Of a stretch of 64,000 bases of DNA, positions 7,305 through 49,508 are shown piece by piece (position 1 is the stretch's first letter; every line of letters begins with the position of its first letter). Below the pieces are notes generated by a model. It ran no database searches and was not told where the DNA came from. It saw only the letters and a list, made by a program, of their open reading frames with translations. The translations under genes and the position numbers were made by a program. The DNA comes from Methylohalomonas lacus (GTDB taxonomy: Bacteria; Pseudomonadota; Gammaproteobacteria; Methylohalomonadales; Methylohalomonadaceae), in the NCBI RefSeq assembly GCF_024808875.1, contig NZ_JANUCT010000003.1, forward strand, positions 1 to 64,000, in the 5' to 3' direction.

Positions 7305-9254
7305 TCAGGTAAGCTCGAAGGATTCGATTTGCTGGTCATTATTGATATTGTCGATGGGCTCACCGATAAAGTAGCCCATGGCAAAATCCGCGCCGCCGTT
7401 TATCGCCTGGGTCAGCATGGCTGCGTCCTCGATGAACGTCGCCACCAGCAGGCTGCCGTGCTCTTTTAGCTGGCTGATCGATGCCGGCATACTGGCGGGA
7501 TCGCTCTGCTGTGATTGCAGTTCGTCCAGCAGCTTCTGACTGATCTTCACGATATCGAAATGCGATTTTTCCAGGCAGCTGTTCAGCTGCTCTACCGAAG
7601 AGAAGGACGACAGCGCAAAGCGGAAGCCATAGCTTTGGCGCATGAACTTGAACAGTGCTTCCACCTGGCGCCGGTGTGTCAGGTATGTATCTGCGGCAAC
7701 CTCGATACACAATGACTTGCCGACATCCAGACCGGCGATGGATTTCATCAGCTTGCTCTGTAACCAGTTGAACAGGCTGGAGTCAGCAAAGGATTCCTCG
7801 CTTATCTTGATGAGAAAAACCGGGCTCTGTTGTTTGTTGTTGCGATAGCTGACAATGCGACCAACAGCCTGGCGCAGCAGCCAGCGATCCAGCAGTTTCT
7901 GGTTACGCTTGTTGCGCAGCTCCGGCATGATCTTGTCGGCCTCGATGATGACGCCGTCGGTATCGACCATGCGAATGCGAATACTGTAATACTCGCGATC
8001 GATCTGGGTGGCTTTTTCCGACAGTGGCATGATTGGCTGGTAATACTGCAGCAGTCGGTTGTCGTTCAATGCCTGCAGGATATCAAAGCCGGTGTCTGCG
8101 TCGCTGTCCGCCGGATCTGATTGCCCGTGCAGTTTTTCCGCCGGCATTTCCAGCGTCATTTCCAGGAAATCTGCCTCGCTGGGTGGTGCTGAAGCGGCAG
8201 CAGTTGCCGTGGAACGAGTGGTCGCCGCTGTTGGTGTTCCTGCTGCTGGATTCGCTGTGGTGGTCGTCGGGCTGATGGTCTCAGGTTCCGATACGGCGGG
8301 TACTGCGCGTGTGTCCGTCTGCGTCGCCGGCACGTCGCTGTAGGTCCCTCCGGGCATATGCAGGGCGCAGTCGTTACCACCGTTGTCCTGGATATGTCGA
8401 CACAGGCGCCGCGCGATGCGCATGATGTCATTGGCGCTCTTGTCCGCTTCGCTCAGGCCGACACCGGCGATACTGACTGTAAAAACAATGCTACTGCCGT
8501 CGTTGTCATAGGGGTGCTCGTGTAGATGCCGACCCAGATCGGTGACAGTCTGCTGCAGTGACGTGCCTGTCGGCAGAGTGCAGAGCAGCCCGATACTGGC
8601 ATCGCTCATGCGGGTCATGCTGACAAGATGATCGGTATCGGAGAAAACTTTGTAAGTTACCCTGGCGATATGTTTGATGACACTGTCCTGCAGAATGACA
8701 CCATGCGCTTCGCCCAGCTCGGTATATTGATCCAGGTCTATGAGCACGAAAACCTGTCCGCTTTCGCTGTCCGTTGCCGCCTGTTCGAGTTTTTTATAGA
8801 ACAACGCCTTGTTGAAGGACTGGCTGTTCTGGGTATTGGCCGCTTCCTGCTCGCGCTCCGCGTTGCGGATCTGGATGGCGTCCTCAATAGCTTGCTTGAG
8901 TTTTTCCCGGGTGATGTTCTGCTTGCGCAGGTAGTCCTGCACACCGTATTTCATCGCCCGTACGGCGATATCCTCGCTGCCAGCTGCGGTCATCATGATG
9001 ACCGGCGGGAAATGCTCCTGTTTCTTCCATTCATTCAGCAGGTCGAGGCCGGTCAGCGACGAGTTCAGGAAATAATCGAGAATGACCAGATCGCAACCGG
9101 TCCAGTCGAAGTCGGTAGGCGGCGGCCCGCTCAGCGCCGGATCGTATTCCTCGACGATGGCGTCGGGCAGAATGCCGTTGATGTGGCGCGTAATAAGCTG
9201 CCGAAAGGATTCGTCATCATCGATGATCAGACAACGTTTCACCGGTTTGGTCAC
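7305..9254 (-). CDS. Response regulator with degenerate GGDEF and EAL domains
   Basis: A 649-residue protein starting at GTG 9254 (AGGGG six bases upstream, then VTKPVKRCLIIDDDESF). Residues ~5-125 are a receiver domain with the acidic pocket IDDD, phospho-site LVILDYFL and a late YLRKQ lysine. Next comes a GGDEF-like region (~155-290) in which the catalytic GGDEF loop is replaced (MSDASIGLL), then a Pro/Thr/Ala-rich linker. The C-terminal EAL-like region (~395-645) has YYSIRI where EALLR should be but keeps a GYFIGEPID end. It probably binds cyclic di-GMP or partners rather than making or breaking it, as in FimX-type proteins. Its receiver resembles that of the kinase at 37468-38778. Confidence 0.82.
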   Translation of the reverse strand: MTKPVKRCLIIDDDESFRQLITRHINGILPDAIVEEYDPALSGPPPTDFDWTGCDLVILDYFLNSSLTGLDLLNEWKKQEHFPPVIMMTAAGSEDIAVRAMKYGVQDYLRKQNITREKLKQAIEDAIQIRNAEREQEAANTQNSQSFNKALFYKKLEQAATDSESGQVFVLIDLDQYTELGEAHGVILQDSVIKHIARVTYKVFSDTDHLVSMTRMSDASIGLLCTLPTGTSLQQTVTDLGRHLHEHPYDNDGSSIVFTVSIAGVGLSEADKSANDIMRIARRLCRHIQDNGGNDCALHMPGGTYSDVPATQTDTRAVPAVSEPETISPTTTTANPAAGTPTAATTRSTATAAASAPPSEADFLEMTLEMPAEKLHGQSDPADSDADTGFDILQALNDNRLLQYYQPIMPLSEKATQIDREYYSIRIRMVDTDGVIIEADKIMPELRNKRNQKLLDRWLLRQAVGRIVSYRNNKQQSPVFLIKISEESFADSSLFNWLQSKLMKSIAGLDVGKSLCIEVAADTYLTHRRQVEALFKFMRQSYGFRFALSSFSSVEQLNSCLEKSHFDIVKISQKLLDELQSQQSDPASMPASISQLKEHGSLLVATFIEDAAMLTQAINGGADFAMGYFIGEPIDNINNDQQIESFELT

Positions 9255-9477
9255 TGCAACCCCTGAATTGTGGCTGGCATGGCGCAAGGCGCGCCGAAGG
9301 CTGTTTCTCCATTCCTTATTACATAGCACATTTTGAGAGAATTCAACCGTTAACGCGGTCAGTGCCAGCCCGATCGATGTGACTGATTTACAGGGCCGAC
9401 GGTTCTGCACCATGACGATGCAGGCCGATATGACCGTGCCGTTGCCGAATTTCAGTAACCGCCTGGCCGGGGTCGGA

Positions 9478-37467: not shown

Positions 37468-38778
37468 TCAGCGTTTCCAATCGATGCCGATCAGCAGTTC
37501 GCGGCTGGTCTGGAAACGCTCGTCGGGGTCCTTGGCCAGCAGGCCATCGACCAGCGGTTGGTACTTGCCGAGGTATTCCGGTAACTGCGGGATGGGTTCG
37601 ACGACGTGGGCGCGCAGCAACTCGCTCACCGAGTGACCGCTGTAGGGCCGCTTGCCGGTGAGCATCTGAAAGAAAATGACGCCCAGGCTGTAAAGATCGC
37701 TGCGATTGTCGACTTTCATGCCGCTGCCCTGTTCCGGGCTGATGTAGTAGGGCGTGCCGACGATCATGTTGTTGACCGTGATGTCCTCCATGTCCTCTTC
37801 GCCACGCTTGGCAACGCCGAAATCGGTGATGGTCAGGGAACCGTCATCCTTGAACAGAATGTTTCCCGGCTTGATATCGCGGTGGACAATGCCGCGTTCA
37901 TGGACCGCGCCGAGCCCGGAGGCCATCTGGCGCAGGTATTCGAGCGCTTCCGCCGGGCGGATGCCTTCCTTGATACGCTTGGTCAGGTCCCCGGCGGGGA
38001 AGTACTCCATGGCGATGTAGGCAAAGTCGGCGGCAAACGCGCGCTCGTAGATGCGTACCACGTGCGGGTGATCGATATCCGATAACAGGTTGTACTCGAG
38101 CATGAAGCGCTTCAGTGCAGTTGGATCCTCCATGCCGCGGGTGAACATGATCTTCAGCACGACATGAATGTTGTCCTCGAGACGTTCCCCCAGCACCACC
38201 GTGGACATGCCGCCGTGACCGATTTCCTTGATCAGGCGATAGCCGGGAATCTCCAGTGCCAGTGCCTCGCTGGTGGCGACGGCAGCTTCCGATGCGGGCA
38301 TATTCTGGTAGGTGGTCTCGTGTGCGGGATCGACATCACGCAGCGTGGTTTCATGCGGATCCTGGGTGCTCTCATCATCCGGCGCCAGGATTTCCAGTTG
38401 TTCATGGCCGGCGGCCTCGAGCAGCTTGCCCAGCAGTGCGTCGCCCTCGACGTCCTTTTTCAGAAGGTAGTTGTCAGCACCGAGCTTCATGGCATCAATG
38501 GCAACGCGCGTGCTGTCCTCGCCGGTCAGCATGAGAATCGGCGGCATATCACTGTAGGCCTTGAAGGCGCGCAGCCAGTCGAGACCGTTTTCCTCTGTCA
38601 GGCCAAGGTCGTAATCGAGCAGCACCAGGTTGAATGCCTGCCAGCCGAATTCGTCATCGGGTAAGCCCTGTGCAGGATCGTATTCCACCACCTCGGCGGT
38701 TGGGAACTCGCCTGCCAGCCGATGCACGATCAGCTGACGATACTCGGCGGAATCATCTATAAGCAGAATCTTCAACAA
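37468..38778 (-). CDS. Receiver-Ser/Thr protein kinase fusion
   Basis: 436 residues. Residues ~1-125 are a CheY-like receiver (LLIDDS acidic pair, phospho-Asp in LVLLDYDLGL, LLKKD lysine). Residues ~180-430 are a eukaryotic-like kinase: GHGGMSTVV glycine loop, Lys in VVLKIM, catalytic HRDIKPGN, DFGVAK and SPEQ. There is no membrane segment or sensor domain, so phosphorylation of the receiver, presumably by the CheA-like kinase upstream, would control Ser/Thr kinase activity. Translation starts at one of two consecutive TTG codons preceded by GAGGG. It lies ~100 bp after the CheA gene. Confidence 0.9.
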   Translation of the reverse strand: MLKILLIDDSAEYRQLIVHRLAGEFPTAEVVEYDPAQGLPDDEFGWQAFNLVLLDYDLGLTEENGLDWLRAFKAYSDMPPILMLTGEDSTRVAIDAMKLGADNYLLKKDVEGDALLGKLLEAAGHEQLEILAPDDESTQDPHETTLRDVDPAHETTYQNMPASEAAVATSEALALEIPGYRLIKEIGHGGMSTVVLGERLEDNIHVVLKIMFTRGMEDPTALKRFMLEYNLLSDIDHPHVVRIYERAFAADFAYIAMEYFPAGDLTKRIKEGIRPAEALEYLRQMASGLGAVHERGIVHRDIKPGNILFKDDGSLTITDFGVAKRGEEDMEDITVNNMIVGTPYYISPEQGSGMKVDNRSDLYSLGVIFFQMLTGKRPYSGHSVSELLRAHVVEPIPQLPEYLGKYQPLVDGLLAKDPDERFQTSRELLIGIDWKR

Positions 38779-38881
38779 TGACCGGCCCTCGGTAACGGGC
38801 TTCTAATTATTCAATGGGGCGTTTACGCAGAGGTTAGCATAAACCGGCAGTCAGGCGGTAAAGGGAGTAAAGAAGCGGGTT

Positions 38882-41800
38882 TCAGGCGCTGGTCGAGTAG
38901 CTGTGCTCCAGCAGGTCATGAACATGTTGCAGCAGTTCGTCCTCGGAGAACGGCTTGTTGAGGTAGACATCGATACCCGCGTCGCCGGCCATGTGCCGGT
39001 GTTTCTCGGTCGAGCGCGAAGTAATCATGATGACCGGAATGGCGGACGTATCATTGTTGGCCTGCAGGTGTGAAGCCAGTTCGATGCCGTTCATGCGCGG
39101 CATTTCCAGATCGGTAAGGATGATGTCCGGGCGTTTCTTCTCGATCAGCGACATCGCCTCGAGCCCGTCCTTGGCCGTACGCACGTCATAACCGGCGTCA
39201 CGTACCACCTGGGCCAGTGTGCGGCGGGCGCTGATCGAATCGTCCACCACGAGGGCGACCGGCAGACTGCGGCGAATGCCGGTGTCGGTCAGTTCGCCCT
39301 GTTCGACGCGCTCGTCCAGTGGGGTACGGATCAGTTCCGGCAGATCCAGCACCGGTACGACGCTGCCATCGCCGAGAATGGTGGCGCCGACAATACCGCG
39401 AATCTTGCGCAGGTACGGCCCCAGCGGCTTGACCACCAGATCGCGGCTGTCGATGACCTGCTCGATCTGGACCGCACAGTTGAGCGCTTCCTCGCGCACC
39501 AGCAGCGCCGGCCGGCTGTTGCGATCGCCGCGTCGGCGATCCTTCGGCAATTGCAGCAGGTCATCGATCATGTGCAGCTCCAGGTCCTCGTCCTCAAGCT
39601 GGTAGCGGGCTGCGTCGTCATCGCCGCTGACGGTGCCGTCATCGGGGTGCAGGATCTGGATGATGCCGCGCGTGGAAATCGCCATCACCTGCTTGCGGAC
39701 CCGTACCAGCAGGCCGTGGGTGGTCATCAGCGACACTGGCAGGCGCAACTCGAACTCGGTGCCCTGGCCGGGTTCGCTGTGGATCAGGATGCTGCCCTTG
39801 ATGGCCTGCAGCTGCGTGGCAACGATATCCATGCCGATGCCGCGCCCCGAGGTCTGCGTCGTTTCGCTGCGGGTAGAGAAGCCCGGCCGCAGGATCAGGC
39901 GCCGCAGTTCGTCCGCCGAGAAGTTTTCATCAGCGTGAATCAGGCCACGTTTTTCGGCCAGCTGACGAATGGTATCCACATTCAGTCCGACACCATCGTC
40001 GCGGCAGCGCAGGACCACCTGGGTGCCCTCGCTGGCGCAGCTCAGCGTGATCGTGCCACTGGGCTGCTTGTCCCGGCGAATGCGTTCCTCGCGTGTCTCG
40101 ATACCGTGGTCGACGGCATTGCGCAGCATGTGCATGAGCGGATCGACCAGGCTGGTGAGGATATCGCTGTCGAGTTGCGTGTCGGTGCCCTCCAGGATCA
40201 GGTCGGCCTGCTTGCCGGTAACGCGGCAGGTCTGGCGCACGGCGCGCTGCAGCCGCGGCACGATACTCTTGATCGGTACCATGCGCGTGCGCATGACCAG
40301 TTCCTGGACCTCGCGCTGCAGGCGCGACTGGTTGACCAGCAGTTCGTCCAGGGTGCGCAGGCGCTGGCCGATGTCCTGGTCGAGCTCCTGCGAGTCGGCG
40401 GCCGCCTCGACCAGCTGATGGGTGACGGTATGCAACTCGTTGTACTGTTCGAGTTCCAGCGTGTCGAACCCGCTGTCGCCGGACTGGCTGAGCTTGTAGG
40501 CAATGCCGCCAACGTCGACCTGTTGTTCAAGTTGGCCGACCAGGTCTTGGAACAGGTTGTGCTGTTGCAGCAGCGACTGGTTCTGATCGCTGCTCTGGCG
40601 TACCTGTTCCTGCAGCTGGGCGGTCACGATCAGCGTCTCGCCGACCAGCCGCAACAGATCGTCGATCAGGTGGGACGGTACCCGCAGGCTGGTTGACTGC
40701 TCTTCCTCCGCCTCGCCCGACGGCCGGTCGGAGGGCTTGTCCGACGGTTTATCCGACGGTTTGTCGGCAGTGGGCTCCGCAGCGTCCGTGGCGGTTACCG
40801 GGGCATCGTCGTCCATGGCAGCGACGCCCTCGGTTTCGATTCGATTCACCCAGTCGAGCACGGCCTGCAGGGTCTGCCTTGAGCCGGCCGGGGCCGAACC
40901 GCGTTCCAGCAGGGCCTCGCTCATCTCCTCCAGGCAGTCGGCGGCGTCAACCAGGGTCAGCGCCAGCGGTTGCGACGGCATGCGCTCGTGTTCGACCAGG
41001 ATGACCAGCAGATCCTCGATCTGGTGGGTGAGGGTGGCGATGCCGCGTACGCCCACGGTGTTAGCGGCGCCCTTGATGGTATGGGCGACCCGTTGGGCGC
41101 GTTCCAGATCCTTCTTGCCGCCGTTACCGCCGGCCAGCGTCTGGATCGCGGCGGAAAAGGTTTCCGTCTGGCCGGGCAGCTCCTCGAGCAGGCCATCCAG
41201 CAGTTCCTGGTTGATATCGTCCGGTAACTGCAGGCTGACATGCTCGTCGGTGGCGGTTTGCAGTCGCTCGTCGCGCGGTGTGTCGTCACTGATGTAGGCG
41301 GCGCCGAGCAGGTCGACCAGCGGCTGGCGCAGTTCGTCCAGTAGCGGTTCCGGCCAGGCGTCAGCGGCCAGGCTGTCGACCAGTGCCTGGCTGTATTCGG
41401 CATCGCCGACCGCGCCGAGGTAGGCGCCAACGCGATCCGGCCAGTCGCAGAGCAACCGTACCTGTTGTTCATTCAGGGCTGCTGCGGATTGTTCCAGTGC
41501 CCGGATGTTGCCCTGGAGGACTTCACAGGCCTGCTGCAGCCCGGCCAGCTCGGCCGCCTGACAGGCGTTACCGAAGCGCTCGATGCGCATGGCGTATTGC
41601 AGCAGGCTGTCACTGCGCAGCGCCGGGGTCAGATCATCGGCGTACAGCTGCGTCTGTAGATGTCCCGCCTCGTCGTGCATCTGTTGCATTTCCGAAGCCA
41701 GCATGTCGACCAGTTCGAGGCTGATCGGCTGCGGCGACGGTGTCGTGGGCGTAACGGCCGACGCCGGCGCTTCGGGACCGGCGGTATCGCTGGTCGCCGG

Positions 41801-43120
41801 GCTGACATCAAAGTCGGTGGCGGCGTCGGTTGTGGCCGGTTCGCTCGCCGTCGTCGTCTCGCCGACCTCGGTCGTGTCCGCGCTTGCGCCCGTACCGAGC
41901 ATTTCGCGCAGGATGGTGACGTCACCCTCGTCGAGCGGGTTCGGCCAGCAGGAATCGGTGAGGCAACCGAGCAGGGCATCGGCAGCGTTGCGGTTGTCGG
42001 GGTTGGCCAGGTAGTCGCGGACGTCGCGGCTCCACTGCCGCACTTTCTGCAGCTGGGTGTCGTTGAGACCAGTCGCGGTGGCGGCCATGTCCTCAAGCTG
42101 CTGCTGCAGCAACAGGCAGATGTCCTGCAGACCGAGCTGATCGCGCTCGGCGGCGCTGTCGGCCAGTGCCGCCAGCGGCGTTGTCAGGTAGGTCAGGGTC
42201 GTTGGATTGTCGGTTTCGACCTGTGCCAGCGACGCGTCAAGACTGGCGAGTGCCGCCGGTTCAAATTCGCCGGTCGTCTGCTGCGGCGCCGGAAACGGCG
42301 TGACGTTGGCAACCGGTGGCGGCTCGTCCTCCAGCGGTGATTCTGGCGCCTCGATGCCGAACAGCTCGTACAGCACCATCGCGTCCTGATGGCTGAGTGC
42401 TGTCGGCCAGTGGGGCTGGCAGAGATTCTGAATCAGGGCGGCGCGCGAGGCGCGGTCGTCGCTCTGGCGCAGGCAGTTAGCGGCCAGACCCGACCAGGCG
42501 GTGAGCAGCGTTTTCTGTACATCGCTGAGCGGTTCACCGTCAGCGACGATATCGCCGATATTCTGCTGCAACAGCAGGGCGCAGTCCTGCAACGCCGTTT
42601 CACCGGTATCGCCAAGACACTGGGCGAACTGCCCGAGTGCCTGTTCCACCTGCTGCAGGCTTGCCGGCACTTCATCATCGATGGCGCGAATGGTTTCGGC
42701 CAGCCGTGTCAGTTCAGCGTGCAGGTCATCGTCCCGGTCTGCCAGCATGTCGAGCAGTACGCCGGCGTCCGTGTCACTCATCGGTGCCGGCCAGACTGGG
42801 GCGGTCAGGGTATCCAGTAATTGCCGGCTGCTGGCCTTGTCGGCGCCGCTTTCGAAATAGTTTCCCAGCAGCGTCGGCCAGTGCTGTAGCAGGGCAAGCT
42901 GATCGGTCGTAAGCGTACCGCTTGCGGTGACATCTTCCAGGTGCTGCTCCAGGAGCAGGATACAATCCTGCAGACCGAGAAGATCCTGCGCCGCGGCCAC
43001 GTCGGCAAGCTGTTTCAGGGCCGTGACCAGTGCCGGAATATCTGCCAGCGTTTGGCAGTCATTGGCTGCCACCTGTAATCCGGTGATTGCCTCCTGCAAC
43101 TGGCTGTCAGCTTCGGTCAT
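38882..43120 (-). CDS. ChpA/PilL-like hybrid CheA kinase
   Basis: 1412 residues. Residues 48-607 hold four imperfect ~80-residue repeats (GLQD...WP.PL...ML). A single convincing Hpt site AHTIKGAANT follows (His ~680), then a dimerisation helix, an HATPase domain (MLRNAVDHGIE and DDGVGLN), a CheW-like domain and a C-terminal receiver (VVDDSISARR, ILTDLEMP phospho-Asp, NKPFSEDEL). The architecture is that of the type IV pilus kinases ChpA/PilL. It should phosphorylate the PilG/PilH-like regulators encoded upstream and perhaps the receiver-Ser/Thr kinase downstream. Cytoplasmic, clustered with the MCP. Confidence 0.92.
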   Translation of the reverse strand: MTEADSQLQEAITGLQVAANDCQTLADIPALVTALKQLADVAAAQDLLGLQDCILLLEQHLEDVTASGTLTTDQLALLQHWPTLLGNYFESGADKASSRQLLDTLTAPVWPAPMSDTDAGVLLDMLADRDDDLHAELTRLAETIRAIDDEVPASLQQVEQALGQFAQCLGDTGETALQDCALLLQQNIGDIVADGEPLSDVQKTLLTAWSGLAANCLRQSDDRASRAALIQNLCQPHWPTALSHQDAMVLYELFGIEAPESPLEDEPPPVANVTPFPAPQQTTGEFEPAALASLDASLAQVETDNPTTLTYLTTPLAALADSAAERDQLGLQDICLLLQQQLEDMAATATGLNDTQLQKVRQWSRDVRDYLANPDNRNAADALLGCLTDSCWPNPLDEGDVTILREMLGTGASADTTEVGETTTASEPATTDAATDFDVSPATSDTAGPEAPASAVTPTTPSPQPISLELVDMLASEMQQMHDEAGHLQTQLYADDLTPALRSDSLLQYAMRIERFGNACQAAELAGLQQACEVLQGNIRALEQSAAALNEQQVRLLCDWPDRVGAYLGAVGDAEYSQALVDSLAADAWPEPLLDELRQPLVDLLGAAYISDDTPRDERLQTATDEHVSLQLPDDINQELLDGLLEELPGQTETFSAAIQTLAGGNGGKKDLERAQRVAHTIKGAANTVGVRGIATLTHQIEDLLVILVEHERMPSQPLALTLVDAADCLEEMSEALLERGSAPAGSRQTLQAVLDWVNRIETEGVAAMDDDAPVTATDAAEPTADKPSDKPSDKPSDRPSGEAEEEQSTSLRVPSHLIDDLLRLVGETLIVTAQLQEQVRQSSDQNQSLLQQHNLFQDLVGQLEQQVDVGGIAYKLSQSGDSGFDTLELEQYNELHTVTHQLVEAAADSQELDQDIGQRLRTLDELLVNQSRLQREVQELVMRTRMVPIKSIVPRLQRAVRQTCRVTGKQADLILEGTDTQLDSDILTSLVDPLMHMLRNAVDHGIETREERIRRDKQPSGTITLSCASEGTQVVLRCRDDGVGLNVDTIRQLAEKRGLIHADENFSADELRRLILRPGFSTRSETTQTSGRGIGMDIVATQLQAIKGSILIHSEPGQGTEFELRLPVSLMTTHGLLVRVRKQVMAISTRGIIQILHPDDGTVSGDDDAARYQLEDEDLELHMIDDLLQLPKDRRRGDRNSRPALLVREEALNCAVQIEQVIDSRDLVVKPLGPYLRKIRGIVGATILGDGSVVPVLDLPELIRTPLDERVEQGELTDTGIRRSLPVALVVDDSISARRTLAQVVRDAGYDVRTAKDGLEAMSLIEKKRPDIILTDLEMPRMNGIELASHLQANNDTSAIPVIMITSRSTEKHRHMAGDAGIDVYLNKPFSEDELLQHVHDLLEHSYSTSA

Positions 43121-43153
43121 GTCGAGTATTCGCGCAGCGTTGGCCGGTCAGTG

Positions 43154-44587
43154 TTATACGGAGATTTCCTGGGTCGACTCATTGCCGTCTTGATCGTCGT
43201 CATCATCACTGTCGGTCTGGAATACGCCGACTGAGGCGACCAGCGCCATGGCGTTTTCCACCAATTGATCAGTATAGGCGGACTGTTCCTGCAGATGGCT
43301 GCCGGTCTTGCGCACGGTATCGCGAATGACCTGGGTACGATCGCGCAGCCGGATACTGATATTGGCCTGGGCGCTGGCGCCGGATGCAATCTTTTGCACC
43401 ATGCCCACCAGTTCAGAAGTGGTCGCCTGGGTATTTTTCATTTGCTCGCCGGCCTCCTCGGCGAGTTTACTGCCGCCGACCACCTGCGTGATCAACTCGT
43501 TCATGGTGCTGACCGTACTCGAGGTTTCGACCTGGATGTTGTTCACCAGGGTAGCGATCTGTGAGGTCGCCTCGCGCGCGTTCTCCGCCAGCCGCTGCAC
43601 CTCGTCGGCGACCACCGCGAAACCGCGGCCGGCCTCACCGGCGGAGGCCGCGTGCATGCTGGCATTGAGCGCCAGGATATGGGTACGCTCGGAAATGTTG
43701 TTAATCAGGTTGACCGCGGTACTGATTTCCTGGGAACGCTCGCCCAGACGCTTGATGCGTTTTTCTGTCTCGCGAATGGTGTCGCGGATCTTGTTGATGC
43801 TGTCGACGGTATTGTTTACCGTTTCCATCGCCGTGCTGGTCATTTCGATGGCTTCGTCAGCCGAGCGGTTCGAGGCCTGGGCAAGCTTGGCAATGCGCTG
43901 CATCATCTCAGTGGCCTTGGTCAGCTCGGAGGCGGTGTTTTCGATCTCCTCGCGTTCCTGATTTGCCAGTAACAACACGTTGTCGGATTGCGACTTCACC
44001 AGGTTCGAGGCCTCGGCGACATCACTGGAAATGCGCATGACCTCGTTCAGCACCTTGGCGGTTTCCGTGGTCATGAGGTTGAGTGCATCGGCAAGTGGGC
44101 CGGTCACGTCCTCGCTGACTTTGGCGCGGATGGTCAGATTCTTTTGTGCCAGCTGAGCCACCGTTTCCAGCAGGGCAACGATCGAGTCGTTCAGCTGCTC
44201 GTTTTCGTCCTCGATTGTGGCCAGTGCCGAGACGCGATCATTGAGGATATTATCGATGGCCTCGCCGACCTCCTGAAATTCATCACCGGAACGAATGCCC
44301 ATGCGGGCATCCAGATCGCCGTCCCCGATTTTGCGCATGATGGTTTTCAGTCGCAGCAGAGGCTGCGTCAGGCGGGTGGCGAAATAGGAACAGCCGAGGG
44401 TGACAATAATCGTGATGATTACGGCCGCCGCCGCGCCACCCATGAGGAGTTGACTGTGATCACCCTCGATACGACTGATGGCGATAAGCAGGGCGGCAAT
44501 AACCAGCAGATAAAGTACACTGCCCGTGACAGCGGCCAGGAAAATCTTGTACTTGACGCTAGCCTTGTTGCCAGTGTTTTTACTCAT
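43154..44587 (-). CDS. Methyl-accepting chemotaxis protein, PilJ-like, without periplasmic domain
   Basis: 477 residues. Two membrane segments (~18-40 and ~50-68) are separated by only ~10 residues, so there is no periplasmic sensor domain. A HAMP domain follows, then a long coiled-coil signalling region with the hairpin tip ERTHILALNASMHAASAGEAGRGFAVVADEVQRLAE (~320-355). It couples to CheW and CheA. The acidic tail contains a DSDDDDDQD run. The ATG at 44587 was chosen for GGGGAG nine bases upstream. No CheR or CheB gene is linked. Confidence 0.9.
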   Translation of the reverse strand: MSKNTGNKASVKYKIFLAAVTGSVLYLLVIAALLIAISRIEGDHSQLLMGGAAAAVIITIIVTLGCSYFATRLTQPLLRLKTIMRKIGDGDLDARMGIRSGDEFQEVGEAIDNILNDRVSALATIEDENEQLNDSIVALLETVAQLAQKNLTIRAKVSEDVTGPLADALNLMTTETAKVLNEVMRISSDVAEASNLVKSQSDNVLLLANQEREEIENTASELTKATEMMQRIAKLAQASNRSADEAIEMTSTAMETVNNTVDSINKIRDTIRETEKRIKRLGERSQEISTAVNLINNISERTHILALNASMHAASAGEAGRGFAVVADEVQRLAENAREATSQIATLVNNIQVETSSTVSTMNELITQVVGGSKLAEEAGEQMKNTQATTSELVGMVQKIASGASAQANISIRLRDRTQVIRDTVRKTGSHLQEQSAYTDQLVENAMALVASVGVFQTDSDDDDDQDGNESTQEISV

Positions 44588-44737
44588 GACCAACGCTCCC
44601 CAATGCGATCGTAGACTCGGCCTGGCCGTTTATCTCGTCTGAATTTTTGCAATACAACAGTCCCACCCTATCGGGCGGCTGGAAAAGATCATTATCTGTC
44701 GATGGATGGTGAACGTATGCAACGCCAGTCCATACCA

Positions 44738-45325
44738 TTACCAGGACAACGTATCTGTGTTCATGCCGGAATCCGCCAGCAGTTCGGCAAATAACTCGCG
44801 ATGATCGACTTCCAGCCAGACCTGTTCGCCATAGCGGAAAGCGGCATTGACATGCTCATGAATGCTTTCCGGCAAATCGATCGGGATTGCGGCGCGCTGT
44901 TCCGGCTCGTCAGGATCAATCTGTAGTGCCTGGGGCAGTCCATCGATATAAATGCCCACCGCGCGTTCACCCTGGTCAAGCACCAGCAGGCGCTGGTCAT
45001 CGGCATGGACGGCCGTATTGTCCAGCCGCTTCAGGAAGTCGAAGACCGGCACCAAATTACCTCGCAGGTTGATAACGCCCAGTACCCATGGCCGGGTATT
45101 GGGTATCCGGTAAATCTCGACGTTCTGTACAACCTCGCAGAGTGTATGGCTGTCAATCAGGATATGCTGACCACCAATGCGAAAGCCGTAGCGCATGTTG
45201 CGCAGCTGCTCGGCCTTTTCCTCATGATCGGTTAAACCCTGGAACGGATCGAAGTGATCCAGTGACTGACCGACCATCATGCCGGTCAGGTTGGCGAGTG
45301 TGTCTTGTTCCTGATCATTATGCAT
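44738..45325 (-). CDS. CheW-domain coupling protein, PilI-like
   Basis: 195 residues with one CheW domain (~50-190): FRIGGQHILIDSHTLCEV, VLGVINLRGNLVPVFD and a late EQRAAIPIDLPESI segment. A ~45-residue N-terminal extension rich in Asp/Gln precedes it. It should bridge the MCP and the ChpA-like kinase. It lies between the pilH-like gene (22-bp gap) and the MCP gene (150-bp gap). Confidence 0.88.
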   Translation of the reverse strand: MHNDQEQDTLANLTGMMVGQSLDHFDPFQGLTDHEEKAEQLRNMRYGFRIGGQHILIDSHTLCEVVQNVEIYRIPNTRPWVLGVINLRGNLVPVFDFLKRLDNTAVHADDQRLLVLDQGERAVGIYIDGLPQALQIDPDEPEQRAAIPIDLPESIHEHVNAAFRYGEQVWLEVDHRELFAELLADSGMNTDTLSW

Positions 45326-45347
45326 GAAGGTTGGCTATACCTGGCCT

Positions 45348-45713
45348 TTAACTGCAGGCCTTGATCTGATCCATGATTTGTTGTGCGGTGAAAGGCTTGG
45401 AGACCAGGTCCTTGCCACCCTGCATCTTTGCCCAGACGCGATCGGCTTTCTGGCGCTTGCTGCTGACAAACACGACCGGTATGGCCTGCGTGCTACTGTC
45501 ATTGGTAAGCGTACGCGTGGCCTCATAACCATCCATTTCATCCATGACGATATCCATGAAAATGATGTCCGGTTTCTCCTGCTTGGCCATTGCAACTGCT
45601 TCGCGACCATTGCTGGCCGTGATTACCGTGCAACCGGCATCACCGACAATTTTTGCCAGATTCGAACGATCAGTCGACGAGTCGTCAACGATCAAGACCT
45701 TGTTTATCGCCAT
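45348..45713 (-). CDS. PilH-like single-domain response regulator
   Basis: 121 residues: a bare receiver with KVLIVDDSSTDRSNLA, phospho-Asp in IIFMDIVMDEMDG and the conserved Lys in VSKPFTAQQ. It resembles PilH in length and position. Two adjacent ATG codons are possible; the second (45713) has GGAGG at a better spacing. It probably acts as a phosphate sink or motor signal in the chemosensory pathway. Confidence 0.88.
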   Translation of the reverse strand: MAINKVLIVDDSSTDRSNLAKIVGDAGCTVITASNGREAVAMAKQEKPDIIFMDIVMDEMDGYEATRTLTNDSSTQAIPVVFVSSKRQKADRVWAKMQGGKDLVSKPFTAQQIMDQIKACS

Positions 45714-45792
45714 CATACACCTCCATCAAACGACAACTACAACACATCCTCAACAGGCGGACACGGTCCGCTCCATTTATAATGACCGCGGT

Positions 45793-46614
45793 TCAGACAG
45801 TGGCTGAGCCAACTGCGCGCGGTTTTTTTAGATAATTCTGTACTACTTCCTGAAAGACAGCTTCACCAACCGGCTTGATAAGGTACGTGTCACAGCCGGC
45901 CAGTTTGCCCTTGATCCGGTCGGCGGGTGACGAGTTGCCGGTCAGCATTATGACCGGTGTCTCCTTGGCCTTGCCCTGCTTGATGACTTTGCATATCTCG
46001 TAGCCGTCGACACCCGGCAGGATAACGTCCAGGAAAATCAAGTCATAGGTGTTACTATTGATCAGTTCAAAAGCCTCTTCACCGGTTTCAGCGAAATCGA
46101 CTTTTTCGGCAAAGCGTTTCAGTGCCTGATCCAGCTGGATACGCACGGGCAGGCTGTCATCGACAACCAGTGCCGCATAACTGCTACTGGCTACTGATGG
46201 TGCCGGTTGCGATCCCGCCGTCGCCGACGTGGGTTGGCTGGTAGCGCTGAACGCAACGTCACTGCTCAGACCCAGCTCGTTACTTGCAACCTGGTCGAGG
46301 ATGCTGATAGCACGCGAAGCGATCAGCGGCCGACGAACCTGGTAGTGTTTGGTCTGAAATTCACGGTTCTGTGACACCAGTACTGACGATGGAATCGCCA
46401 GACCGCTGTTATCCAGCCGGTCGCGATACTGGCGCCATTGCACCAGGGCAGAGGGCTCGTCGGCATTGACCATGAGAATGTCGGGTCGGGCATTCAGTTC
46501 GGCAAAGACATAGGTCGTTGCCCGGGTTTCCGAATGCTTGAACGCCGCCTGCAGTCGTTTCTCCTCCTGCTCGGGGATACCGATGACGGCGACATTGACC
46601 GGATTCTCACTCAT
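45793..46614 (-). CDS. PilG-like response regulator with N-terminal extension
   Basis: 273 residues. The C-terminal ~125 residues are a receiver (ALVVDDSLPVRIQLDQALKR, phospho-Asp in LIFLDVILPGVDGYEICK, LIKPVGEAV). The N-terminal ~130 residues look like a decayed receiver or small alpha/beta domain (NVAVIGIPEQEEKRL, DILMVNADEPSALVQWRQYR) lacking an acidic pocket. The ATG at 46614 was chosen because it follows the upstream stop by ten bases; an in-frame start further up would lie inside that gene. PilG normally drives pilus extension. Confidence 0.82.
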   Translation of the reverse strand: MSENPVNVAVIGIPEQEEKRLQAAFKHSETRATTYVFAELNARPDILMVNADEPSALVQWRQYRDRLDNSGLAIPSSVLVSQNREFQTKHYQVRRPLIASRAISILDQVASNELGLSSDVAFSATSQPTSATAGSQPAPSVASSSYAALVVDDSLPVRIQLDQALKRFAEKVDFAETGEEAFELINSNTYDLIFLDVILPGVDGYEICKVIKQGKAKETPVIMLTGNSSPADRIKGKLAGCDTYLIKPVGEAVFQEVVQNYLKKPRAVGSATV

Positions 46615-46624
46615 GGTGATTGTT

Positions 46625-47626
46625 TCAGTTGTCCTCGACGACCATGTAGACCAATGTCTGGTTAAGGAGCTGGTAGGCAATTTCACCGAAGGTCATTGGT
46701 CCGAGCATGTGCGATGTCTGTTTACCCTCGAGTTCCGAGTACATGTAATTCAGCACACAGTTGCAGCTGAACGTGACATCGTGATCCAGCTTTGGCAGGG
46801 CATTGCGGAATTCACTGACATAGTCGTTAACCGGTTTGGCCAGTTTGTACTCGACACCGCTGAAGACCGGCGCGTAGAACGATACGGTTTTCTTGTCCTG
46901 GTCGACTTCCTGGAACGAAACGTTCAGCTTGGCGCCGGAATAGTCGGCAACCAGTGGCTGCCGGGTATCAACATTGTGTTCCTGCAGGTAATCGGCAAAG
47001 TTCTGTTCGACGCCATTGATCAGCACCTTGTCAGTCGCAAACCCGGTTTGTGGAAATTCGAACGTATCGCCGTCGCCCTGTTCCTGGATATTGACGATAC
47101 CGATGTGGGCAGCTTTACCGGGCTTGAGTGCAACATGCATGACGATGGCATTTTCGGTTGAGCTCTCGCCGGTGCCGCCATTGAACACGGTTGGCTTGAC
47201 CTTGCCGAGATCATCGAGATGGATACCGGTAATCCAGCCGGCAATCGGCTTGATGAACATGTCCTCGTATTCAGGGGCATGCTGGGCGTATTGCAAGTGC
47301 ATGTCGGTCAATGCCGGGATCAGGAGAATCGTGAAACCATCCTCCGGTGCATCCTTGGCAATGTTGTGGATGGTGCCGGTGTTGTAGAACTTGATCTGGA
47401 TCTTCTTGGCCAGAGCCGGATCCAGCTCGTTCACGAAGATCATGTCCTGACTGGTTTTGCCGCCTTCCTGGGACATGAAGTAGGGGATGGAACCGCCGAT
47501 CCAGCGACCTTTCGGCAACTGTTTCAGAAGGTTTTCATCGCCGGCGAGCCACAGCACCTTGCCGCTCTCGATGGCGGCTTTGGTTTCATCCAGCGTACAA
47601 AGACGGGGTTGCAGAATATCAGACAT
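46625..47626 (-). CDS. FIST-C-like protein of unknown function in the chemosensory operon
   Basis: 333 residues, soluble. The last ~100 residues resemble a FIST C-terminal domain: FSCNCVLNYMYSELEGK followed by MTFGEIAYQLLNQTLVYM, compare FSC...G.FTYGEI.....NQT in FIST sensors. The first half (KGRWIGGSIPYFMSQEGGKTS, IAGWITGIHLDDLG) is only weakly FIST-N-like. FIST proteins are thought to sense small ligands and often accompany signalling genes. A GAGGAG Shine-Dalgarno precedes the ATG. It lies 20 bp after the ISL3-like repeat gene and 10 bp before the PilG-like gene. Function unknown. Confidence 0.6.
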   Translation of the reverse strand: MSDILQPRLCTLDETKAAIESGKVLWLAGDENLLKQLPKGRWIGGSIPYFMSQEGGKTSQDMIFVNELDPALAKKIQIKFYNTGTIHNIAKDAPEDGFTILLIPALTDMHLQYAQHAPEYEDMFIKPIAGWITGIHLDDLGKVKPTVFNGGTGESSTENAIVMHVALKPGKAAHIGIVNIQEQGDGDTFEFPQTGFATDKVLINGVEQNFADYLQEHNVDTRQPLVADYSGAKLNVSFQEVDQDKKTVSFYAPVFSGVEYKLAKPVNDYVSEFRNALPKLDHDVTFSCNCVLNYMYSELEGKQTSHMLGPMTFGEIAYQLLNQTLVYMVVEDN

Positions 47627-47645
47627 TATTGGTCTCCTCTCCCAC

Positions 47646-49508
47646 TCATGCAGCTCTTAGCTGTTCGAGTTCTGCGCGGTGTTTGTTCTGATGTTTTATG
47701 AAGTATTGTCTTAAAATCTTGGCACCGGCCAGACGCGAGGCGTCGGTCGGATTGTGTTCGATCGACAGACGAATGCGTTCCAGCATCATCTTCAGACCGA
47801 CGGCATCGGTCATGATCTGAAGTTCCCCGTTGATCAATCGCTGCCAACTGGGATGCGTGATGGCCGGAATCACGGCACTGTGCTCGTCGTCATGGGCGAC
47901 AGGCTGGTGTGCCGACTCATCACCGGTTAGCATCCGGATCTCGGCTGCATGACGATGCTGGTTCTTGGTGAAGTACTGTCGCAGCATACGCGCGCCGGCG
48001 AGGCGGTTGGCTTCGCTCGGTTTGCGGGCAATGGCCTGACGTACACGTTCCAGCAGCATCTTCAGGCTCACGGCATCGGTACGCAGGCTGATGTCGCCAT
48101 TGATCAGCCGTTGCCAGTTGGGGTGATCCTCGGCTGGCAGTTCCGCCGCGCTGACAGCGGCATGGCTGTCATGTGTGCCGGCACCGGCCAGCAACTGATT
48201 GATCTCGTCCGGATGCTTGCTGCGGTTCTTTTCAAAGTACTGGCGCAGTACCTTGGCGGCTGCCACGCGGTTACCTTCGCTCGGATTGCGGCTGATGGCC
48301 TGGCGTACCCGCTCAAGCAGCATTTTCAGACTGATGACGTCGCTTTGCAGCTGGATGTCGCCACTGATCAGGCGTTGCCAGACCGGGTCGCGCTCACTGG
48401 GCAAAGGCTGCCGGGCGGTTTCTGTACTGGCCACCGCTGCTGCTGCAGTCGGCTGCGGCGTGGCGCCACCCAACTGGGCGATTTCACTGCCGAGGCGCGT
48501 CTGATGCTTGGCAAAGAACTGTCGCAGTATGCGCGCCCCGGCCAGGCGGTTGCTTTCGGCCGGGTTCCGTTCAACCGACTGGCGCACACGCTCCAGCATC
48601 ATCTGCAGGCCGACGACACGCGTCTCGATTTGTTGCTCGCCATTGATGAGCTTCTGCCAGACAGCCGCCGACTCCGGTGGCAGGCCGCTGGCGCCGGCAT
48701 GGTCAGCTCCGGCGCGGCTGGCCATGGTAGCTTGGTCGGCACCCAGAAGCTCGATTTCATGCTTGAGCAGCTGCTGGTTCTTGATGAAGAACTGGCGCAG
48801 CGACTGCGCACCGGCCAGGCGGGTCTGTTCACCGGGATCCTTTTCGATATTGCTGCGGACCCGCTGCAGCAGCATGCGCAGAGCCACAGAGTCGGTCTGG
48901 ATTGGCAATTCGCCGTTGATCAGTCGTTGCCAGCCCGCGTGATCGGCGCCCGGTATATGGCTGGTGTCGGCAAGATCGAAATCGTGGCCGCTATCGCTGC
49001 CCGGGGCAGCCGTGTCCGCCGCTGGCGCGGCATCGCGGCCGGCAGGCGCGATGCCGGTCAACTCGCTGATCTCGCGCGCCTCACTGGAGCTGACACTGGC
49101 CAGTCGCGCGGCGATCTGGTTTGTTGGCGCAGCCTGCAGCGCGGCGATGACGTGGTCCTGCATGGCCTGGGTGAAGCGGCTGCCGCTTGCGGCCCAGTCC
49201 TGCATGCAGATACAGTCACCGCGCTCCGAGTGCACTGTGCCGGCCGGCGGCACATGCAGGTAAGTACGCAGATTTGCCACCGGTAGATGGCGTAGGGCTA
49301 CGGCTTCGTAGTCCTCCGCGCGCGGCAGGCTGGCCTGACAATGTGGGCAGGTAGCCTGGTCACTGGAACCGAACAACCCCTTTTTACGGCCACCGACAAA
49401 ACCGATATAGATGTCGAGTCGGTTGGACGGCGGATCGATCTCCACCGCCTGAACCTGCCAGGGATCCTGCAATCCCAGAATTTGTTTGCAAAAATCAAGA
49501 TCCTGCAT
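47646..49508 (-). CDS. ISL3-transposase-like zinc ribbon fused to five tandem repeats
   Basis: 620 residues. Residues 1-~125 match the N-terminal region of ISL3-family transposases: LGLQDPWQVQAVEIDPPSNR, then CPHC (54-57), RHLPVANLRTYLHVPPAG (73-90), a second Cys pair (C99, C101) and SGSRFTQAM. The transposase DDE domain is absent. After a ~65-residue Ala/Asp-rich linker come five repeats of ~70 residues at 189, 279, 372, 461 and 551, each of the form W..LI.G......D...L.MLLERVR..I..NP.E..RLAGA..LRQ.F.K. The ATG at 49508 follows AGGGGGA. It is the first gene of the chemosensory operon. No function is known; a scaffold or ligand-binding role is a guess. Confidence 0.8.
   Translation of the reverse strand: MQDLDFCKQILGLQDPWQVQAVEIDPPSNRLDIYIGFVGGRKKGLFGSSDQATCPHCQASLPRAEDYEAVALRHLPVANLRTYLHVPPAGTVHSERGDCICMQDWAASGSRFTQAMQDHVIAALQAAPTNQIAARLASVSSSEAREISELTGIAPAGRDAAPAADTAAPGSDSGHDFDLADTSHIPGADHAGWQRLINGELPIQTDSVALRMLLQRVRSNIEKDPGEQTRLAGAQSLRQFFIKNQQLLKHEIELLGADQATMASRAGADHAGASGLPPESAAVWQKLINGEQQIETRVVGLQMMLERVRQSVERNPAESNRLAGARILRQFFAKHQTRLGSEIAQLGGATPQPTAAAAVASTETARQPLPSERDPVWQRLISGDIQLQSDVISLKMLLERVRQAISRNPSEGNRVAAAKVLRQYFEKNRSKHPDEINQLLAGAGTHDSHAAVSAAELPAEDHPNWQRLINGDISLRTDAVSLKMLLERVRQAIARKPSEANRLAGARMLRQYFTKNQHRHAAEIRMLTGDESAHQPVAHDDEHSAVIPAITHPSWQRLINGELQIMTDAVGLKMMLERIRLSIEHNPTDASRLAGAKILRQYFIKHQNKHRAELEQLRAA

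Follow-up and report, generated by a model that had tools for sequence, protein, structure and literature searches.

Background

His-Asp and Ser/Thr phosphorylation in bacteria have mostly been studied as separate systems, and the methyltransferase PilK and the methylesterase ChpB are usual, if not universal, components of Pil-Chp chemosensory systems. The Pil-Chp system of Pseudomonas aeruginosa (pilGHIJK-chpABC) belongs to the Tfp class of chemosensory systems (PMC12632253, PMC10542144), and chpB is placed after cheA in its operon (PMC8088505). In Acinetobacter baumannii the operon is pilGHIJ-chpA, with PilK and ChpB both tabulated as nonexistent (PMC8088505). The cyanobacterial pilus taxis operon PixGHIJL, thought to drive type IV pili, resembles the operon described here in encoding two CheY-like regulators, a CheW, an MCP and a CheA, but its PixG carries a PATAN domain and the accessible part of the account mentions no receiver-kinase (PMC5812497). 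A receiver is joined to an enzyme acting on Ser in P. aeruginosa PA3346, a receiver-Ser/Thr phosphatase that is controlled by a histidine kinase phosphorylating the receiver; it differs from the protein considered below in being a phosphatase, not a kinase, and in lying outside any CheA operon in that account (PMC12189002).

Our literature search, of incomplete coverage, looked for receiver-kinase fusions and for Ser/Thr kinases in chemosensory systems. It returned no description of either, and no published account of a CheA operon that ends, across relatives, in a receiver-kinase gene; with that coverage novelty is not proven, and the bare receiver-kinase architecture may have been noticed earlier.

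The eight-gene cluster

The window considered here is a 64,000-nucleotide stretch of the Methylohalomonas lacus genome. A preliminary description, made from the sequence alone, had eight minus-strand genes running from 49508 to 37468, and this was accurate: all eight reading frames are open, they lie where they were placed, and they contain the Pfam domains that were claimed. In order of transcription, the cluster encodes a repeat protein with an ISL3-transposase-like N-terminus followed by five helical repeats (47646..49508), a DUF6976 protein (46625..47626; PF22396, E 1e-141), a PilG-like response regulator (45793..46614; receiver, E 2e-23), a PilH-like single-domain response regulator (45348..45716; receiver, E 8e-27), a CheW/PilI-like coupling protein (44738..45325; CheW, E 3e-23), a chemoreceptor, or MCP, with Pfam HAMP and MCPsignal domains (43154..44593), a ChpA-like CheA in which N-terminal repeats are followed by Pfam Hpt, H-kinase_dim, HATPase_c, CheW and receiver domains (38882..43120), and, from a TTG start, a receiver-Ser/Thr kinase, hereafter Rec-STPK (37468..38778; Response_reg, E 1.5e-10, and Pkinase, E 2.5e-49).

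The gaps between these genes range from 10 to 150 bp (19, 10, 76, 22, 150, 33 and 103 bp in transcription order, taking the ATG at 44587 as the MCP start), and none of them holds a minus-strand terminator-like site. A consensus promoter scan gave 2 sites, against 5.6 expected, and so carries no information either way. The 103 bp gap ahead of Rec-STPK could hold a separate promoter. It had been suggested that the unit continues into tldD and tldE. As tldD starts only 16 bp past the kinase, with tldE a further 23 bp on, read-through from Rec-STPK into tldD is possible in M. lacus, but the synteny is local to this organism: the genes downstream of Rec-STPK vary among relatives, and tldD/tldE adjoin the cluster in no relative examined, which rules them out as part of the unit.

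Comparison with Pil-Chp systems

The genes from pilG to cheA follow the order pilG-pilH-cheW(pilI)-mcp(pilJ)-cheA(chpA), as in P. aeruginosa, and the likeness extends to the two CheY-like regulators, the co-occurring PilT-type ATPases, and a CheA that carries repeats at its N-terminus and a receiver at its C-terminus. The known frame for this operon is the Tfp-class Pil-Chp system. Unlike P. aeruginosa (PMC12632253, PMC10542144, PMC8088505), M. lacus has neither PilK nor ChpB, its CheA has one phosphorylatable Hpt rather than several, its receptor lacks a PilJ-type periplasmic domain, its PilG has an N-terminal extension, and Rec-STPK, the DUF6976 protein and the repeat protein are additions. 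The preliminary description set the missing PilK and ChpB against the standard Chp arrangement, but their absence is not unusual: the operon of A. baumannii shares this lack, which is therefore not new, although the account of that organism lists no receiver-kinase (PMC8088505).

The single phosphorylatable Hpt of CheA (HTIKGA, His680) follows about 600 N-terminal residues containing repeats that lack an Hpt motif. All 11 CheAs compared keep the Hpt histidine, the ATPase boxes and the residues of the C-terminal receiver. In a tree of the CheA core, the M. lacus protein groups with the CheAs of other kinase-linked operons (support 0.84), and this group falls beside canonical ChpA, the flagellar CheAs lying elsewhere in the tree. 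The references were a small set drawn from relatives, three CheAs of Chp type and two of flagellar type, with no named P. aeruginosa sequence.

The two transmembrane segments of the MCP are only a few residues apart, with no periplasmic domain between them. Judging from this topology, with almost nothing between the two helices, the signal read by the receptor is probably a state of the membrane or of the cytoplasm. The receptor homologue in L010 is 762 aa long and has about 350 residues ahead of HAMP. The N-terminal extension of the PilG-like protein is conserved in the alignment. A PilG-like gene with a similar extension is also found in genome G028 (L079:5519-7579), where it is convergent with a kinase of the Rec-STPK family that has no recognizable receiver.

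Conservation of the operon

The genomes drawn for comparison all come from other families of Gammaproteobacteria, and the named relatives carrying the operon are gammaproteobacterial MAGs. Three loci (L004, L007 and L009) have all eight genes in identical order with Rec-STPK last, while L005/L006 keep the order and the terminal kinase without PilH. Two more (L003 and L008) are partial at contig ends, the upstream part lying on other contigs of the same genomes (L101 and L105). A form without the DUF6976 and repeat-protein genes occurs in L010, a MAG labeled Bordetella parapertussis, and in L106, L107 and L108, the L106 contig stopping soon after PilG. At L097, L098 and L109 a related kinase gene is instead divergent to a canonical Pil-Chp operon.

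The proposal of a Pil-Chp-like operon that includes a receiver-Ser/Thr kinase is borne out by this conservation of Rec-STPK as the terminal gene, and by the kinase homologues themselves. The preliminary description would have been contradicted by a kinase family that never occurs with CheA genes, which is clearly not the situation: the eight nearest homologues outside the genome, at 41-50% identity, are all encoded just downstream of a CheA gene. A Rec-STPK profile was also searched against 369 genomes of the class, and positions were compared with those of CheW in the genomes with the best matches. The seven best matches, all above 480 bits (G000, G341 twice, G342, G028, G133 and G245), each have a CheA cluster no more than about 7 kb away, as compared to one of the next 17 (G212:C39), a difference with a hypergeometric probability of 2.3e-5 for a score cut that was picked after the list was known. 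The profile contained some of the top-seven loci, those of G342, G133 and G245 not being among them. It is very likely that the association of the kinase with the CheA operon is real.

The receiver-kinase architecture also occurs outside this operon. M. lacus has a second full-length Rec-STPK (C3:111013-112239, plus strand; L073:8906-10261), 39% identical and with an intact receiver, which has no CheA nearby and is flanked by an RND-efflux-like gene on one side and ExbD/TonB-like genes on the other (these names are from sequence appearance only). Genomes without any CheW also carry full-length receiver-kinases among the lower-scoring matches, so the architecture extends beyond chemosensory loci.

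DUF6976 and the repeat protein

The preliminary description called the second gene product FIST-like. A weak trace of this survives at the family level, with FIST_C matched in 4 of 9 DUF6976 members (best E 0.0046), but the M. lacus protein itself has no FIST match above cut-off and matches only DUF6976. Its AlphaFold model (pLDDT 71.5) has no match below E 0.1 in the PDB, and no paper on DUF6976 was found in our literature search. The protein is a possible intracellular sensor or accessory. DUF6976 occurs without the operon in three genomes (G013, G283 and G302). In the first of these, a genome with no match to Rec-STPK, the DUF6976 gene immediately precedes a CheR and a CheB gene, beside a FliK-like gene (L077:11048-14224), which is a second chemosensory context for the family.

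The repeat-protein gene, the conserved first gene in L004-L007 and L009, contains five direct repeats at 264-279 nt spacing. Residues 61-159 match NCBIfam transpos_ISL3 (E 2.5e-7), and a match to Pfam Zn_ribbon_ISL3 (E 3e-4) is below cut-off. We considered the possibility that the protein is a full ISL3 transposase and rejected it, as only the N-terminal ribbon/HTH region matches, while the remainder consists of helical repeats and the catalytic domain is not matched. Comparison of the AlphaFold model (pLDDT 64.8) with the PDB returned no match below E 0.1. The Cys ribbon is present in M. lacus and L005/L006 and missing in L102, L103 and L104, and metal binding, as read from these sequences, is therefore not essential to the family. 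A version with one recognizable repeat adjoins a DUF6976 gene at L076:3170-4297, in a stretch with no match to CheA.

Chemosensory and pilus genes in the genome

The 2.76 Mb M. lacus assembly is 99% complete and encodes one MCP, that of the operon, and one CheA; CheW domains are found only in the CheW and CheA of the operon. The earlier statement that no CheR or CheB is present holds for the whole genome, where neither domain was found. Positive controls for these searches gave matches in model genomes, which shows that the absence does not come from a failed search. The operon is thus the sole chemotaxis-type signaling system of M. lacus, and it is of the pilus type. Four other genomes (G370, G373, G374 and G376) have no CheR, and since each has just 2-3 CheW domains, they probably carry only this chemosensory system as well.

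Genes for a retractile type IV pilus are present in M. lacus. Three ATPases scoring over cut-off for the PilT family are encoded side by side (C7:65929-69305; L074), and three larger GspE/PilB-type ATPases are encoded elsewhere in the genome. Of 12 genomes that have the system, 11, M. lacus included, encode PilT-family proteins over cut-off, the exception being G342 (85% complete), with no PilT over cut-off. This co-occurrence suggests a link between the operon and the pilus. The side-by-side triplet itself recurs in 9 of the 11 other searched genomes with a kinase-CheA operon, all except G376 and G342.

The receiver-kinase and its possible roles

The kinase domain of Rec-STPK is Hanks-type and catalytically complete (K, E, HRD, K, N, DFG, T, PE), and no transmembrane or PASTA match was found in the protein. 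These motifs are near-constant among relatives, the exceptions being DLG for DFG (L107a/L108a) and HHD for HRD (L078). In a tree of the kinases, the M. lacus protein falls in a clade (0.90) in which every kinase is encoded near CheA or PilG. The window also encodes a receiver-GGDEF-EAL protein (7305-9413, minus strand). Its receiver and the receiver of Rec-STPK are 40% identical, and it is possible from this similarity that the two share a partner.

We think it somewhat probable, rather better than an even chance, that the operon encodes a Tfp-class, Pil-Chp-like system without methylation adaptation in which CheA also signals through a receiver to a Ser/Thr kinase. This is the simplest reading because a usable Hpt, a full set of receiver residues and a complete kinase are encoded in one conserved operon. 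The receptor, responding to a membrane or cytoplasmic state, would act through CheW to control CheA, which would autophosphorylate at its single phosphorylatable Hpt histidine. From there, we infer, phosphate would pass to the two CheY-like regulators (PilG- and PilH-like) and to the receiver of CheA itself, with the type IV pilus as output. In M. lacus it would also reach the receiver of Rec-STPK, and this kinase would then switch the phosphorylation of pilus proteins or array proteins on Ser/Thr. The DUF6976 and repeat proteins would be accessory, perhaps serving as input or scaffold.

Whether the receiver is used in this way bears on the main rival reading, in which it is mainly a docking domain that tethers the kinase to the CheA array, with regulation by CheA or PilG binding rather than by Asp phosphorylation. 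This reading is the main rival because some relatives lack the phosphoacceptor: it is lost along with partner residues in L004, L007 and L010, which retain the operon and the kinase, and it is lost as well in kinases adjoining canonical Chp operons (L097 and L098), whose kinase motifs and gene linkage are likewise retained. Phosphorylation is thus not required in all members. All five receiver residues (D, D, D, T and K, the third being D55 in M. lacus) are kept, however, in M. lacus and in L003, L005, L006, L009, L106, L107a and L108a, suggesting use, and D, T and K are kept in L008, L107b and L108b, where the acidic pair lies outside the sequence slice. Phosphorylation of the receiver is therefore plausible in M. 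lacus and several relatives, on the evidence of these residues, and has been lost more than once. The receiver control proposed in the preliminary description retains its footing in M. lacus and does not extend to every relative, and we consider docking as the main role of the receiver to be unlikely, if worth keeping in mind.

In a further alternative, Rec-STPK would be activated by CheA in the manner of CheB, and Ser/Thr phosphorylation of the receptor, CheW or CheA would replace methylation in adaptation. Consistent with this are the missing CheR and CheB of M. lacus and the missing CheR of the four genomes named above, the receiver-enzyme architecture, which is as in CheB, and the position of the gene after cheA, the place of chpB in the P. 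aeruginosa operon (PMC8088505). The Pil-Chp system of A. baumannii, however, does without both enzymes and has no such kinase listed (PMC8088505), and a methylation-motif search gives no discrimination, as it matched no receptor at all, canonical Chp receptors included. Such a feedback role seems to us very improbable. Equally hard to credit is a kinase that is merely co-located, with unrelated targets and independent regulation, which would suit the 103 bp gap and the many related receiver-kinases found away from CheA, one of them in M. lacus, but not the adjacency conserved across distant families or the clustering in the tree of kinases near CheA or PilG.

Significance

One conserved operon may join His-Asp and Ser/Thr signaling directly, since it places the CheA of a pilus-type array beside a receiver-bearing kinase, and such a join is testable. 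Because M. lacus has just a single receptor and a single CheA and lacks CheR and CheB, both its mode of adaptation and the role of the kinase are addressable there without interference from paralogues. If the feedback reading were true, chemosensory adaptation would proceed in this system by O-phosphorylation instead of methylation.
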